This document shows positions 30,523 through 57,510 of a stretch of DNA of 64,000 nt, piece by piece. The stretch covers positions 1-64,000 of the forward strand of contig NZ_VOAK01000024.1 of NCBI RefSeq assembly GCF_007859075.1. Reading direction: 5' to 3'. Source of the DNA: Gemmobacter aquaticus (GTDB lineage: Bacteria; Pseudomonadota; Alphaproteobacteria; Rhodobacterales; Rhodobacteraceae). The notes below the pieces were generated by a model. The model did no database searches and was not told the DNA's origin. It saw nothing but the letters and a program-made list of their open reading frames with translations. A program made the translations under genes and the position numbers. The first letter of the stretch is position 1. Each line of letters opens with the position of its first letter.

Positions 30523-31110
30523 TCAGGCGGCGGGCGCCGCTTGCCCGCGAAGCCTCCACGCCATCGCACCAAGGGCCGCGCCAATGGCGATGAGGTCGAG
30601 CCCCAGCATCAGCCCGATCAGCCACAGCGCAGTGACCGGCATCGCGGCAAAAAGCACAAGCGACAGCACGACCGAGAGCACCCCGCTGGCAAAAACCCAA
30701 AGCCAGTTGGGCAAGGGACGGATCGTCAATGCGAAGACAACCTTCGACATCCCCTCGATCATGAAGAAGATGATCAGCAGAAGCGACAGCAGCAGCATCC
30801 CCTGCGCGATGTTGCGCAACAGCAGAATGCCCAGCAACACGCCAAGGATGGCCGAGATGATCTGCAGCCAGAAGTTTGGCGCATGGCGTGCGCTGATCAG
30901 GCCGATGGCCTGGATGATGCCGCTGGCGATCAGCAGCCAGCCGAACACCACGACGGCCGCAGCCGAAGAAAAGACCGGGAAGACGATGGCGACGATGCCC
31001 GCGACGACCAGCAGCGCGGCCTGTACCAGGTGGAAGGTCGAATGGCGGCGCACCGCATCGCGCGCGGCCTCGCGGTAGGTTTGCGCAGCGGCGGCAAGAC
31101 TGATCGGCAT
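30523..31110 (-). CDS. HdeD/DUF308 family membrane protein
   Basis: A 195-residue protein with six predicted membrane helices. The pattern LLVVAGIVAIVFPVFSSAAAVVVFGWLLIASGIIQAI is the typical DUF308 repeat unit. Enterobacterial HdeD has a role in acid resistance at high cell density; in alphaproteobacteria the role is unproven. The start at 31110 begins the family's usual cytoplasmic N-terminus (MPISLAAAAQTYREAARDAV). It is a single gene ending in a terminator. Confidence 0.85.
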   Translation of the reverse strand: MPISLAAAAQTYREAARDAVRRHSTFHLVQAALLVVAGIVAIVFPVFSSAAAVVVFGWLLIASGIIQAIGLISARHAPNFWLQIISAILGVLLGILLLRNIAQGMLLLSLLLIIFFMIEGMSKVVFALTIRPLPNWLWVFASGVLSVVLSLVLFAAMPVTALWLIGLMLGLDLIAIGAALGAMAWRLRGQAAPAA

Positions 31111-51710: not shown

Positions 51711-51899
51711 ACGTTCGGCAGGACCGCCTCTTTGCGGGAAAGAACTTGCGCCAAGGGCTGGCCCCACGGTGCTTCGGTTCGCCTGTGGGACTGCGCGATG
51801 GAACGGTGTCCTCATTTGTTTGGCAACGCGCCTTGGGGGCTGAAACCCGGCCAGATTTCCACTATTTGATCATTGACTTACCCTTGCAGGAGCCTGTTC

Positions 51900-52559
51900 A
51901 TGTCTGTTCGCATCAATGATATCGCCCCCGATTTCACCGCACAGTCCACCGCCGGCGAGATCCGCTTCCACGAATGGCTGGGCGACAGCTATGGCATCGT
52001 GTTCAGCCATCCGCGCGATTTCACGCCGGTTTGCACCACCGAATTTGGCGCCGTTGCGCAACTGGTGCCCGAATTTGCGCGCCGCAATACCAAAGTAATC
52101 GGCGTCTCGGTCGACTCGGTTGACGATCATGCCAAATGGAAGCGCGATATCGAGGCCTTTGGTGGCGCGCCGGCAGATTTCCCGATCATCGACGACACCG
52201 CCCTGACTGTGGCCAAAGCCTATGACATGCTGCCGGCCGACTACTACCTGCCGACCGAGGGGCGCGCGCCTGCGCATACCGCGACGGTGCGCACCGTCTA
52301 TATCGTGGGGCCGGACAAGAAGGTGCGGTTGACCATGACCTATCCGATGTCGGTCGGGCGCAACTTCGCCGAGATCCTGCGGGCGCTTGATGCCGTGCAG
52401 GCCACCGACGGCGTTCCACTGGCTACGCCCGCCAACTGGCAACCCGGTCAGGACTTGATCGTGGCGCTGAGCCTGAACAACGAACAGGCCGCTGAACGCT
52501 ACGGCGATCTAGATATCCGCCTGCCCTATCTGCGCTTCGCCCGCGCCCCGCGCGGCTGA
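51900..52559 (+). CDS. 1-Cys peroxiredoxin (Prx6 type)
   Basis: A 219-residue peroxiredoxin that reduces hydrogen peroxide and organic peroxides. The single cysteine Cys45 lies in HPRDFTPVCTTEFG and no other cysteine exists, so it is 1-Cys. FPIIDDTALTVAKAYDML and the Prx6-type long C-terminal region (TPANWQPGQDLIVALSLNNEQA) are as in the family. GCAGGAG precedes the ATG. A good intrinsic terminator follows. Confidence 0.94.
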   Translation: MSVRINDIAPDFTAQSTAGEIRFHEWLGDSYGIVFSHPRDFTPVCTTEFGAVAQLVPEFARRNTKVIGVSVDSVDDHAKWKRDIEAFGGAPADFPIIDDTALTVAKAYDMLPADYYLPTEGRAPAHTATVRTVYIVGPDKKVRLTMTYPMSVGRNFAEILRALDAVQATDGVPLATPANWQPGQDLIVALSLNNEQAAERYGDLDIRLPYLRFARAPRG

Positions 52560-52614: not shown

Positions 52615-52703
52615 CGCTGCGCAGGGGCTGCGCGCTGACGATTTCGTTATCGGTTTGTGAAAAGCCATGCGGTTTCTGCATGGCGGCATTAACCCGCCGG
52701 CGG

Positions 52704-52733
52704 ATTGTGCATCCGCAGCATTTGCCCCATGTT
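52704..52733 (+). promoter_or_regulatory. Candidate RpoH-type promoter for the DUF1127/CcsR unit
   Basis: ATTGTG at 52704-52709 and CCCCATGTT at 52725-52733 are 15 bp apart, like the sigma-32 pattern (CTTGAA, then CCCCATnT). It lies about 60 bp before the DUF1127 ATG. In Rhodobacter sphaeroides the equivalent unit is driven by RpoHI/RpoHII. Assignment is by pattern. Confidence 0.5.
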
Positions 52734-52792
52734 AGCGTCAACAGCGCGAAGGAATGATGAGCGCGCCAAGACGATGATGATGAGGCACTGAG

Positions 52793-53008
52793 ATGGCATA
52801 CGTAGTTTCGAACCGCACCGCACGCTTTTCGCTCGGCGACTATCTGGGCAATGTGAAGGCTTCGCTGAAGGCCAATCTGGCCCGCCGCGCGATCTATCGC
52901 CAGACCCTGAACGAGCTGAACGCGCTGACCGACCGTGAGCTGATTGACCTGGGCATCTCGCGTTTCGAGATCACCGCACTGGCCCATGAAGCGGCCTACG
53001 GCAAGTAA
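52793..53008 (+). CDS. DUF1127 small RNA-binding protein (CcaF1-like)
   Basis: A 71-residue basic protein. The DUF1127 signature fills the C-terminal part (RQTLNELNALTDRELIDLGISRFEI). In Rhodobacter sphaeroides the homologous small protein CcaF1 (RSP_6037) binds RNA and influences processing of CcsR sRNAs, which are made from the 3' part of its own transcript. The same layout is present here: a two-hairpin RNA directly follows. GAGG lies 8 bases before the ATG. A role in stress-dependent post-transcriptional control is likely. Confidence 0.85.
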   Translation: MAYVVSNRTARFSLGDYLGNVKASLKANLARRAIYRQTLNELNALTDRELIDLGISRFEITALAHEAAYGK

Positions 53009-53020
53009 TTCCCCGGTTTC

Positions 53021-53086
53021 CTGCCCCTCCTCCTCCTCCCTGAGGGGCGGAACAAGACGAAGCCCTCCTCCTCCCTGGCTTCGTCA
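53021..53086 (+). ncRNA. CcsR/'cuckoo'-type sRNA with two CCTCCTCCC loops
   Basis: Two hairpins follow the DUF1127 gene. Hairpin 1 has arms GCCCCTC and GAGGGGC (53023-53048); hairpin 2 has arms GACGAAGCC and GGCTTCGTC (53056-53085). Both enclose the same 12-base loop CTCCTCCTCCCT, an anti-Shine-Dalgarno motif. This is the known CcsR/cuckoo architecture in alphaproteobacteria. R. sphaeroides has four copies in tandem; here I see one unit with two hairpins. A terminator ends the transcript at 53123. Such RNAs accumulate under stress and may titrate ribosomes or base-pair with mRNAs. Confidence 0.82.
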
Positions 53087-53094
53087 ATGACAGA

Positions 53095-53123
53095 AGGCCC
53101 GTGGCACCCGCCACGGGCCTTTT
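53095..53123 (+). terminator. Intrinsic terminator of the DUF1127/CcsR unit
   Basis: Perfect 11-base arms AGGCCCGTGGC and GCCACGGGCCT around ACCC, followed by TTT. It ends the sRNA and lies beside the convergent DUF6525 gene. Confidence 0.88.
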
Positions 53124-53127
53124 GCAT

Positions 53128-53373
53128 TCAAGCGCACCCGAAGGACTCGCGGCGAAGCGTGGCCCGTTCGGCGGCGTCCAGCCGCGCCAGTGCCTCGTCC
53201 TCGGACTGGCCCTGTTGCAGCGCACGGGTCCAGATACGCAAGACAGACCGCGCGCTCCATGGCAGGGCGGCATGGATGACCCAACGCCGCAGTGCGGGCG
53301 GCAGGGCATCATGGCGCGACATCGGGCACCCGCTGCGCCAGCGCGCGCGGGATGACACAAGGTTCCGCTTCAT
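53128..53373 (-). CDS. DUF6525 family small protein
   Basis: An 81-residue protein. The block [33 protein letters not shown] is the DUF6525 core found next to diverse genes in Rhodobacterales. The N-terminus [15 protein letters not shown] also fits relatives I recall, so the start is set at 53373. That ATG overlaps the stop of the COG0523 gene (ATGA), so it is the second gene of that operon. Function is unknown. Confidence 0.7.
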
Positions 53374-54572
53374 ACCGATGCGGCCCGCCATTGGGGAAAC
53401 GGATCTGCAAGCAGATCAGGTGCGACTGGCCATTCCGTCTCGGCTGGCATCAGGGCCGAATCGAGGGTAGCCCGCAAGGCCGCCTCATCCATGCCCCGCC
53501 CGATGAAAACCAGCTCTTGCCGACGATCCCCCCACGGGTCTTGCCACTGTTCGGCGATTGCAGCCTGCATCCCGTCTTGCCGGGGCCAACGCGCCTTGGG
53601 AACAGCCGCCCACCACCGACCCAGCGGGACAACCGTCGCGGCCGCCCCCGCCAGCGAGTATTCCGCCACCCAGTCCGGTTGCGTGGCAAGCCAGAAATGC
53701 CCCTTGGCGCGGATGACACCGGGCAGATCGCCATTCAGGATCGCGTGGATCTTTGCCGGATGGAACGGTCTGCGCGCGCGATAGACAAAGCTCGATATCC
53801 CATATTCATCGGTTTCCGGCGTGTGATGGGCAAAGCCGTACAGCTCTTTCGCCCAGAGAGGGTGCTCATGGGCGCGATCAAAGTCAAAAAGGCCGGTCTC
53901 AAGGATGGCATCGGGCGGCACGATGCCATGATCCGTCTCGATCACCTGCGCGTCAGGATTAAGCGCCCGCAGGATCGCCCGCGCCGCCACCACACGGTCG
54001 GGACCAGCGTCACGGCATTTGTTCAGCACGATGACATCGGCGAATTCGATCTGATCGGTCAACAGCGTGACCAATGCCCGCGGATCGTCGGGGCCAAGGC
54101 TCTCGCCGCGCTGGCTGAGAAAATCCTGGCTGGAGTAGTCGGCCATCAGATTCATGGCATCGACGACGGTGACCATGGTGTCGAGGCGCGCCACGTCCGA
54201 CAGGCTTGCCCCCTGCTCATCCCGAAAGGCGAAGGTCGCGGCCACCGGCAATGGCTCGGCAATGCCGGTCGATTCGATCAATAATTGATCAAAGCGCCGC
54301 TCATTGGCCAGCCCGCGCACTTCGGCCAGCAAGTCGTCCCTCAGGGTGCAGCAGATGCAGCCGTTGGTCAGTTCCACCAGCTTTTCCTCGCTGCGGGTCA
54401 GTCTGGTTCCTGCGCGCAGAAGGTCGGCATCGATATTCACTTCGGACATGTCGTTGACGATGACTGCCACCCGGCGGCCATCGCGATTGTTCAGCACGTG
54501 GTTCAGCAGCGTGGTCTTGCCAGCCCCCAGAAATCCGGAAAGCACAGTCACGGGCAAACGTAAGTCGGTCAT
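53370..54572 (-). CDS. COG0523/CobW-type GTPase, putative zinc metallochaperone
   Basis: A 400-residue GTPase of the CobW/ZigA/Nha3 group, which inserts metals into target proteins, often under zinc limitation. The P-loop GFLGAGKTT is at 13-21, and the metal motif GCICC has Cys72, Cys74 and Cys75. The guanine-specificity motif reads NKCRDAG instead of the common NKxD, seen also in some relatives. The C-terminal CobW_C domain ([22 protein letters not shown]) is complete. A possible Zur site lies in the upstream region. It is co-transcribed with the DUF6525 gene. Confidence 0.9.
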
Positions 54573-55359: not shown

Positions 55360-57510
55360 TCAACCTTCGGCGGCCTCTTCCTTTTCTTTCTTCTCGGGCG
55401 CGATTTCCTCACCCGTCTCCTGGTCGACCATCTTCATGCCAAGGCGCACCTTGCCACGGTCGTCGAAGCCCAGAAGCTTCACCTTCACCTCTTGACCCTC
55501 TTTCAGGATCTCGTTCGGGTGGTTCAGGCGCTTGTTGGCGATCTGGCTGACGTGCACCAGACCATCGCGCTTGCCGAAGAAGTTCACGAAGGCGCCGAAA
55601 TCGACCAGCTTGACCACCTTGCCGGTGTAGATCTGGCCTTCTTCCGGCTCTGCCACGATCGACCAGATCATGTCATAGGCCTTTTTGATCGCTTCAGCCG
55701 AGTTCGAGGCGATCTTGATCACGCCGTCGTCGTTGATGTCGACCTTGGCGCCGCTCGTTTCCACGATCTCGCGGATGACCTTGCCGCCCGAGCCGATCAC
55801 TTCGCGGATCTTGTCGGTCGGAATGGACAGCGTTTCGATCTTGGGCGCGTATTCGCTGAAGCCCTGCGGGGCGGACAGCGCCTTGTTCATCTCGGCCAGA
55901 ATGTGCAGACGGCCGTCCCGAGCCTGGGCAAGCGCCTGCGCCATGATCTCGGGCGTGATGCCTGCGACCTTGATGTCCATCTGCATCGTGGTGATGCCAG
56001 CCTCGGTGCCCGCGACCTTGAAGTCCATGTCGCCGAGGTGATCCTCATCGCCCAGGATGTCGGTCAGCACGGCCCATTTGCCGTCATCTTCCAGGATCAG
56101 GCCCATGGCCACACCGGCAACCGGCGCCTTCAGCGGCACACCTGCATCCATCATCGACAGCGAGCCGCCGCAGACCGAAGCCATCGAGGACGAGCCGTTC
56201 GATTCCGTGATCTCCGACACTACGCGGATAGTGTAGGGGAAGTCGGTCGGGGCCGGCAGCACGGCCTGCAGCGCACGCCATGCGAGCTTGCCATGGCCGA
56301 TCTCACGACGACCGGGCGAGCCCACGCGGCCCACTTCGCCGACCGAATAGGGCGGGAAGTTGTAGTGCAGCAGGAAGTTCGAGCGGTAGTTGCCGTTCAG
56401 CGCGTCGATGATCTGCTCATCCTCGCCGGTGCCCAGCGTGGTGACCACAAGGCCTTGCGTCTCGCCACGGGTGAACAGGGCCGAGCCGTGGGCACGCGGC
56501 AGAATGCCGGTTTCCGAGATGATCGGACGCACGGTCTTGTTGTCGCGGCCATCGATGCGGGCGCCACCGTTGATGATGTCACCGCGCAGGATCGCGCTTT
56601 CCAGCTTCTTGATCGCCGAGCCGAGGTTGATGTCGGCCTGATCTTCTTCGGAAAGCGAGGCTACGATCGCAGCCGATGCAGCACTGATCGCGTTCGAGCG
56701 CTCTTGCTTGTCGCGCAGGGCGAAAGCGGCACGCATCTGCGCCTCACCGGCGGCTTTCACCTTGGCATAGAGGTCCGAGATGTCGGGCGCGCTGAAATCG
56801 AAGGGCTCCTTGGCCGATTCCTCGGCGAAGTCGATGATCAGATCGATCACCGGCTGCATCGCGTCATGGCCGAACTTGACCGCGCCCAGCATTTCCTCTT
56901 CGGTCAGCTCATAGGCCTCGGATTCCACCATCATCACGGCGGTCTTGGTGCCGGCGATGACCAGATCCAGACGCTGCTCGGGGTTCATGCGCAGCTGCGT
57001 CATGTCATCCATGCTGGGGTTCAGCACATATTGGCCGTTGGCAAAGCCCACGCGCGCAGCCCCGATCGGCCCCATGAAGGGCACACCCGAGATGGTCAGC
57101 GCGGCTGAGGCCGCGATCATCGCGACGATATCGGGATCGTTGACGAGGTCGCAGGACAGAACGGTGGCCATGACCAGAACTTCGTTCTTGAAGCCATCGA
57201 CGAACAGCGGGCGGCACGGACGGTCGATCAGACGGGAAACCAGCGTTTCCTTTTCCGAGGGGCGCGCCTCGCGCTTGAAGAAGCCGCCCGGAATCTTGCC
57301 GGCGGCATAGTATTTCTCTTGGTAGTGAACGGTCAGCGGGAAGAAGTCCTGGCCCGGCTTTGCCTTCTTGGCAAAAGTCACGTTGGCCATGACCGAGGTT
57401 TCGCCGACCGTGGCGATGACCGAGCCATCCGCCTGGCGCGCAACCTTGCCGGTTTCCAGCGTGAGCGTCTCATTGCCCCACTGGATCGACTTTTTCGTGA
57501 TATTGAACAT
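55360..57510 (-). CDS. pnp: Polyribonucleotide nucleotidyltransferase
   Basis: A 716-residue phosphorolytic 3'-5' exoribonuclease central to mRNA decay. Two RNase PH domains ([30 protein letters not shown]; the second with [16 protein letters not shown] and [22 protein letters not shown]) are followed by KH ([15 protein letters not shown]) and S1 ([34 protein letters not shown]) domains. Length is standard. It follows rpsO in this cluster, as in many bacteria, but an HPP/CBS gene is placed between them here. The leader contains a hairpin just before the ATG. Confidence 0.98.

Follow-up and report, generated by a model that had tools for sequence, protein, structure and literature searches.

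A short DUF1127 gene followed by two hairpins and a terminator in Gemmobacter aquaticus raises the question of whether such a locus is what remains of a longer small RNA array or a locus in its own right, and of what would switch it on. The locus lies in the window (the whole 64,000-nt stretch of DNA that was analyzed), where it and its neighbours comprise the following features:

51873..52559, + strand: conserved neighbour, 1-Cys peroxiredoxin (AhpC/TSA)
52667..52691, + strand: box 1, a dyad TGCG-N6-GCAT (52668-52681) overlapping TGCATGGCGGCATTA (52677-52691); putative LysR-type (LsrB/VtlR-like) site
52704..52720, + strand: box 2, ATTGTGCATCCGCAGCA, which includes the -35 TTG (52705-52707) and hardly varies among the loci surveyed
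52725..52730, + strand: RpoH-like -10 element, CCCCAT
52793..53008, + strand: DUF1127 small protein of 71 aa (Pfam PF06568); second paralogue, other than the array-linked one
53015..53125, + strand: ar14/cuckoo-type small RNA in the 3' UTR (RF02344, 76.3 bits)
53018..53052, + strand: hairpin 1, with the anti-Shine-Dalgarno (aSD) loop CTCCTCCTCCCT at 53030-53041
53056..53085, + strand: hairpin 2, with the aSD loop CTCCTCCTCCCT at 53065-53076
53091..53124, + strand: Rho-independent terminator hairpin
53128..53391, - strand: neighbour DUF6525, converging on the terminator; present in 3 of 7 other genus stretches

The DUF1127 gene and the RNA behind it

The window locus genuinely belongs to a known kind, the pairing of a short DUF1127 gene with a CcsR-like RNA that is described under the name CIN1 locus in PMC10253847; here the short gene lies directly 5' of a cuckoo/ar14 sRNA on the same strand, with 9 nt between its stop codon and the first hairpin base (53018). 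The ORF at 52793-53008 matches Pfam PF06568 with 46.2 bits against a cut-off of 23.3, and the Rfam model ar14 (RF02344) matches 53015-53125 over its full length (1-123) with 76.3 bits against a threshold of 58.8, the sole above-threshold Rfam match within the 64 kb. These matches bear out both the order of DUF1127 gene, two same-loop hairpins and terminator and the CcsR/cuckoo-type identity that an earlier note on this DNA had proposed. With the DUF1127 protein as query, no NCBIfam model matched up to E 0.1, and a PDB search with the DUF1127 alignment returned nothing usable (best E 0.17).

The two hairpins have unrelated stems and identical 12-nt loops, so that, as had been noticed earlier, it is the loops and not the stems that are conserved; a search of both strands of the 64 kb for CTCCTCCTCCCT finds only these two loop copies. 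When 53009-53125 was shuffled 5000 times with dinucleotides preserved, at least two TCCTCC-loop hairpins (stems of at least 7 bp) arose in one shuffle and at least one in 84. The fold z-score of the window RNA is -7.9, with none of 200 shuffles equally stable. Gene, hairpins, identical loops and Rfam membership are thus observed directly, as are the orthology and the common promoter module described below.

In its layout the locus resembles CcaF1-CcsR1-4 of Rhodobacter (Cereibacter) sphaeroides, which likewise has a 71-aa DUF1127 protein, an RpoH-type promoter, a 3'-UTR RNA and a terminator, and whose transcript is reported to arise from an RpoHI/RpoHII promoter and to be cleaved by RNase E (PMC10253847). 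CcsR1-4 form a tandem array of several two-hairpin sRNAs, four in number, whereas the window has one hairpin pair; the array-type counterpart in G. aquaticus is a different locus, on contig C12 (see below). A further likeness is to RSP_0557, an R. sphaeroides gene for a 70-aa DUF1127 homologue of CcaF1, whose promoter, according to PMC10673084, is bound by RpoHI and RpoHII when core enzyme is present. In 2011, RNAs carrying three or four CCUCCUCCC hairpins were described and proposed to be one family with varying hairpin number and several copies per genome (PMC3927594). The window's two hairpins carry such CCUCCUCCC loops on variable stems, as do ar14/cuckoo RNAs (RF02344), among them NfeR1, with which the window shares, besides the above-threshold covariance match, a candidate LsrB-like site at about the same promoter position. 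NfeR1, as described in PMC10746234, differs in having three hairpins that all bear the motif and a sigma-70 promoter, whereas the third hairpin of the window is a plain terminator.

Polynucleotide phosphorylase, an RNA-decay enzyme, is encoded about 2.2 kb from the DUF1127-sRNA locus (window 55360-57510); pnp also accompanies the window-type locus in 5 of the 7 other genus stretches, as it does the locus of G010, a genome from another genus.

A second locus beside a ten-hairpin array

The earlier note had read the single hairpin pair as an array reduced to one unit, a natural minimal version of the system. By copy number alone the locus does look small. RF02344 matches 121 of 149 family genomes (one genome per genus), and we surveyed 90 loci from 81 of these 121, a sample that favours good scorers and in which a wider stretch, where there was one, took the place of narrow loci from that genome. 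At least two aSD hairpins lie downstream in 70 of the 73 DUF1127 rows (range 2-17, with 4-12 in 60 of the 70); 68 of the 70 have 3-17, and exactly two, as in the window, are found in G105 and G126. The comparison of hairpin numbers behind DUF1127 genes that the note had called for sets the window's two against 3-17 in 68 of 70 loci. A full array is, however, present in the same genome. The G. aquaticus genome (G000) has seven DUF1127 matches and five ar14 matches, and four of the five ar14 matches form one array on C12, directly behind another DUF1127 gene; this array has ten aSD hairpins and adjoins mrp- and mraZ-like genes. No TCCTCC-loop hairpin was found at the genome's other five DUF1127 matches within the 2-2.5 kb stretches examined.

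The two kinds of locus can be followed separately through the genus. The array locus is found in 10 of 11 genus genomes, with ten hairpins in 8, nine in G158 and three in G152; it was not found in G156 (genome 82% complete). The window-type locus, beside the 1-Cys peroxiredoxin, is found in 8 of the 11; G149, G150 and G152 (this last genome 87% complete) yielded none. In G010 a DUF1127 gene with one clear aSD hairpin has as neighbours pnp and a peroxiredoxin that is more distant (58% identity). A tree of 93 short DUF1127 proteins (71 columns), in which 45 of the 90 inner branches are unresolved, groups the nine window-type proteins, that of G010 included, in one clade with support 94/94 and the ten array-linked proteins of the genus in a separate one with support 94/87. 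Among the best 80 of 269 titled peroxiredoxin loci (3 of which have less than 1200 nt downstream), a DUF1127 gene follows within 2.5 kb in five, those of Gemmobacter caeruleus, G. lanyuensis, G. serpentinus and two Gemmobacter MAGs; these five are already among the 8 of 11 genus loci and are not further cases. Together, the genus distribution, the coexisting C12 array, the separate DUF1127 clades and the peroxiredoxin survey establish the window locus as a lineage-specific second locus alongside a full array. That a canonical CcsR array shrank to one unit in this lineage, for which the low hairpin number and the two other two-hairpin loci speak, is accordingly very improbable: the ten-hairpin array refutes reduction for the genome as a whole, and the window-type clade stands apart from the array-linked one. 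The window locus may still be an old duplicate that lost units after duplication.

Our reading of the locus, to which we give a probability of about 80%, is that of a second CIN1-type locus with a stress promoter and a LysR-type site, whose cleaved 3'-UTR sRNA blocks Shine-Dalgarno regions; expression, processing, target pairing and regulator are modelled here on relatives. Under stress, an RpoH-type polymerase and a LysR-type activator would act at the promoter module, and the one stress-type promoter would yield a DUF1127 mRNA with the two hairpins and the terminator in its 3' UTR. Endonucleolytic cleavage of the 3' UTR would free a two-hairpin RNA of about 110 nt, the CUCCUCCUCCCU loops of which would pair with the Shine-Dalgarno regions of mRNAs and block their translation. 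The DUF1127 protein may modulate the window sRNA and other RNAs (alternatively, contacts with proteins may be how DUF1127 proteins act; PMC12501420), and the locus would add protein and a small RNA dose to the output of the array.

Orthologues show how the two parts of the locus can separate. Across the 8 window-type loci both aSD loops are kept in 5, degenerate in 1 and absent in 2, so that the conservation of the loops in close relatives, which the earlier note had expected, is borne out in part. G000, G153 and G158 have two aSD hairpins, to which G156 and G157 add an aSD terminator loop; G151 has degenerate loops, and G154 and G155 have none. Judged by these orthologues, two of which have the DUF1127 gene but no aSD loops and one of which has degenerate loops, the sRNA part is dispensable at the window-type site; the retention of the protein in the two relatives without aSD loops further suggests that the sRNA part of the second locus is redundant with the array. 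The same two loci, together with the fact that G154 still folds two stem-loops with other loops, would also fit hairpins that are mere structure, stabilizing or terminating the DUF1127 mRNA with loops that have no trans function here. We consider this unlikely given the identical 12-nt loops on unrelated stems, the retention of both aSD loops in 5 of 8 orthologues and the occurrence, in other genera, of same-loop clusters without a DUF1127 gene directly upstream. A second locus with a functional sRNA thus remains our preferred reading. It means that a one-pair DUF1127-cuckoo locus can coexist with a full array, and that relatives which have the protein and have lost the RNA loops separate the two parts naturally, without engineering.

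Several neighbouring observations concern aSD hairpins elsewhere. The G154 stem-loops lie in the orthologous 3' UTR at L082:4047-4160, where the aSD loops are gone. The family survey holds 19 further aSD clusters without a DUF1127 gene directly upstream, 13 of them pairs, and some of these pairs (e.g. both of L331) are probably due to chance. Three such pairs occur in G094 (L320, L321 and L322) and two in G039 (L329 and L330); the promoter module is found at L320 only. A single aSD hairpin with a terminator lies behind an ammonium transporter-like gene in G156 (C64:39001-39109, L116; ar14 40 bits), and was not counted as a locus, having one aSD hairpin and no DUF1127 match. Four tandem DUF1127 matches lie within about 2 kb in G007 (C6:20602-22640).

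The promoter module common to both loci

Upstream of the gene, the TTG at 52705-52707 and the CCCCAT at 52725-52730, 17 nt apart, fit the RpoH-type promoter pattern, and the sigma-32-like promoter predicted earlier is thereby supported. The conserved box at 52667-52691 lies upstream of the point at which the earlier note began and was missed there. Relative to the putative start site it falls at about -70 to -48, and with it the promoter becomes a module. Its dyad, TGCR-N6-GCAT, leads into GCATRGCNGCATTG; after another 12-13 nt ATTGTGCANNYGCAGCA covers the -35, and a -10 of the CC(C/T)AT type follows. The module is common to the window locus, the C12 array locus and loci across the family. Its conservation exceeds what a sigma-32 site needs, and this common module is the new element here. 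The ten-hairpin array locus carries the same module, so the window and array loci are probably switched on together.

Both boxes lie upstream of 85 of the 87 DUF1127 loci with at least two hairpins, a count that is not an independent test, the patterns having been written from the aligned loci themselves; they are found at 3 of 6 DUF1127 genes with fewer hairpins and at 7 of 21 DUF1127-less clusters (box 2 at 10 of 21). Independent support comes from the outside control of box 2, from dyad shuffles and from one new genome, G055. The box 2 pattern has 100 matches inside the 300-nt upstream windows versus 1 outside them (1.23 Mb, both strands counted), and 7 in the 80 peroxiredoxin loci, of which five fall one apiece in the window-type loci and the other two elsewhere; this pattern, looser than GGATTGTGCANNNGCAG below, also has one additional match in the window, at 30812. 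The dyad occurs in 91 of the 100 loci with box 2, always with N6, where shuffles give an expectation of 0.1.

Genome-wide, GGATTGTGCANNNGCAG matches exactly at the window and C12 loci only. Three matches have one mismatch, all inside ORFs and none near any of the genome's seven DUF1127 matches (one, at C1:427498, has CCAT at the -10 distance); with up to two mismatches there are 52 matches versus 14 for the reversed pattern. The box 1 pattern behaves similarly: at up to one mismatch it finds both DUF1127-cuckoo loci and one place inside an ORF, and at up to three it has 148 matches versus 28 for the reversed control. The strict two-box pattern matches in 2 of 289 class genomes, both of this family, of which four genomes were sampled; it misses the G. 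aquaticus array locus because box 1 of that locus departs from the pattern.

G055, one of the two strict-pattern genomes, had no ar14 match in the family survey with its stricter filters. An RNA-like stretch free of protein genes follows its module and contains two aSD hairpins, one strong and the other weaker; a DUF1127 gene, itself followed by aSD motifs, comes farther on. A direct scan there gave 34.2 bits for CcsR1 (threshold 65.3) and 30-31.5 bits for ar14 (threshold 58.8), all below threshold. The promoter module thus led to a DUF1127-cuckoo-like locus that scores below the Rfam thresholds.

Candidate readers of the module

The module points to a LysR-type regulator, although the literature examined, in the parts available, names none here. 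In Sinorhizobium meliloti the LysR-type LsrB is described as an indispensable activator of transcription of NfeR1, which is an ar14 RNA, and as binding TGCA-N6-GCAT in its promoter (-72 to -60; the site is given as -72 to -57) (PMC10746234). A consensus GCAT-N3-TG-N3-T has been proposed for LsrB/VtlR sites, the one in the abcR1 promoter spanning -61 to -49 (PMC8844928), and the VtlR targets in Brucella are reported to include AbcR2 and three DUF1127 genes (PMC12595884). In the window the corresponding letters are TGCG-GTTTCT-GCAT and GCAT-GGC-GG-CAT-T, each with one departure from its pattern, at a position reckoned from the putative start site; the Brucella VtlR motif printed in PMC12595884, taken in reverse complement, and the window box disagree at 2 of 15 letters. 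In sequence, and in position as counted from the predicted -10, the window dyad thus resembles the LsrB site of NfeR1, and the LysR-type box has nearly the same letters as in the VtlR/LsrB regulon of AbcR sRNAs and DUF1127 genes in Rhizobiales.

We tentatively propose, at somewhat less than even odds, that a single dedicated LysR activator of the LsrB/VtlR type, bound at the dyad and the -35 box, controls the DUF1127-cuckoo loci of Rhodobacteraceae, whether arrays or single units. Box 2 at the -35 would presumably be the second contact of such an activator, as we take the architecture of LysR sites to be. LsrB is described as unique to Rhizobiales in PMC11975290; VtlR/LsrB is described as present in many Alphaproteobacteria in PMC7486931, which also places vtlR next to trxB in Agrobacterium. 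Inspected by eye, the surroundings of trxB held no LysR gene among ORFs of at least 100 aa (3.9-kb stretch) or at least 130 aa (7.5-kb stretch). In the literature searched, partial texts among which key older papers did not figure, we found no description of this module for Rhodobacteraceae. If the proposal holds, LsrB control of NfeR1/AbcR in Rhizobiales would be an ancestral wiring of anti-SD sRNAs spanning two orders, LsrB-type control would operate in a family that, as one paper implies, lacks LsrB, and the regulon in the G. aquaticus genome would be little more than the window and C12 loci. The short module offers a testable lead to whatever, besides RpoH, switches on CcsR-type RNAs.

The boxes can also be read as CTGC-N3-GCAG and GTGC-N4-GCAG, and this CTGC/GTGC-GCAG arrangement is a pattern of PhaR, the PHB-responsive repressor, which could bind the conserved module instead of an LsrB/VtlR-like regulator. 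Consistent with such a reading, the promoter of a phasin-like gene next to phaR in the G. aquaticus genome has two CTGC-N3-GCAG sites (the phasin match itself is under the Pfam cut-off), and in S. meliloti PhaR sites are reported to flank the -35 of phasin promoters and PhaR to repress the sRNA MmgR (PMC12542648). The dyad TGCR-N6-GCAT, however, occupies roughly the position of the proven LsrB site in an ar14 promoter and accompanies box 2 in 91 of 100 loci; the N3 of box 1 is mostly ATR in the alignments, a departure from the S. meliloti PhaR motif, and our literature search for PhaR with DUF1127, in the texts available to it, found no link between the two. We therefore regard PhaR as a doubtful reader of the module and favour the LsrB/VtlR-like regulator.

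Three minor observations were made on C12 of G. aquaticus. The two CTGC-N3-GCAG boxes of the phasin-like promoter (about 210.4-212.4 kb) are 28 bp apart; the gene after phaR resembles one for a LysR regulator; and a palindrome, TGCTGCATTGCAGCA, lies just upstream of a ParA-like gene (C12:99376).
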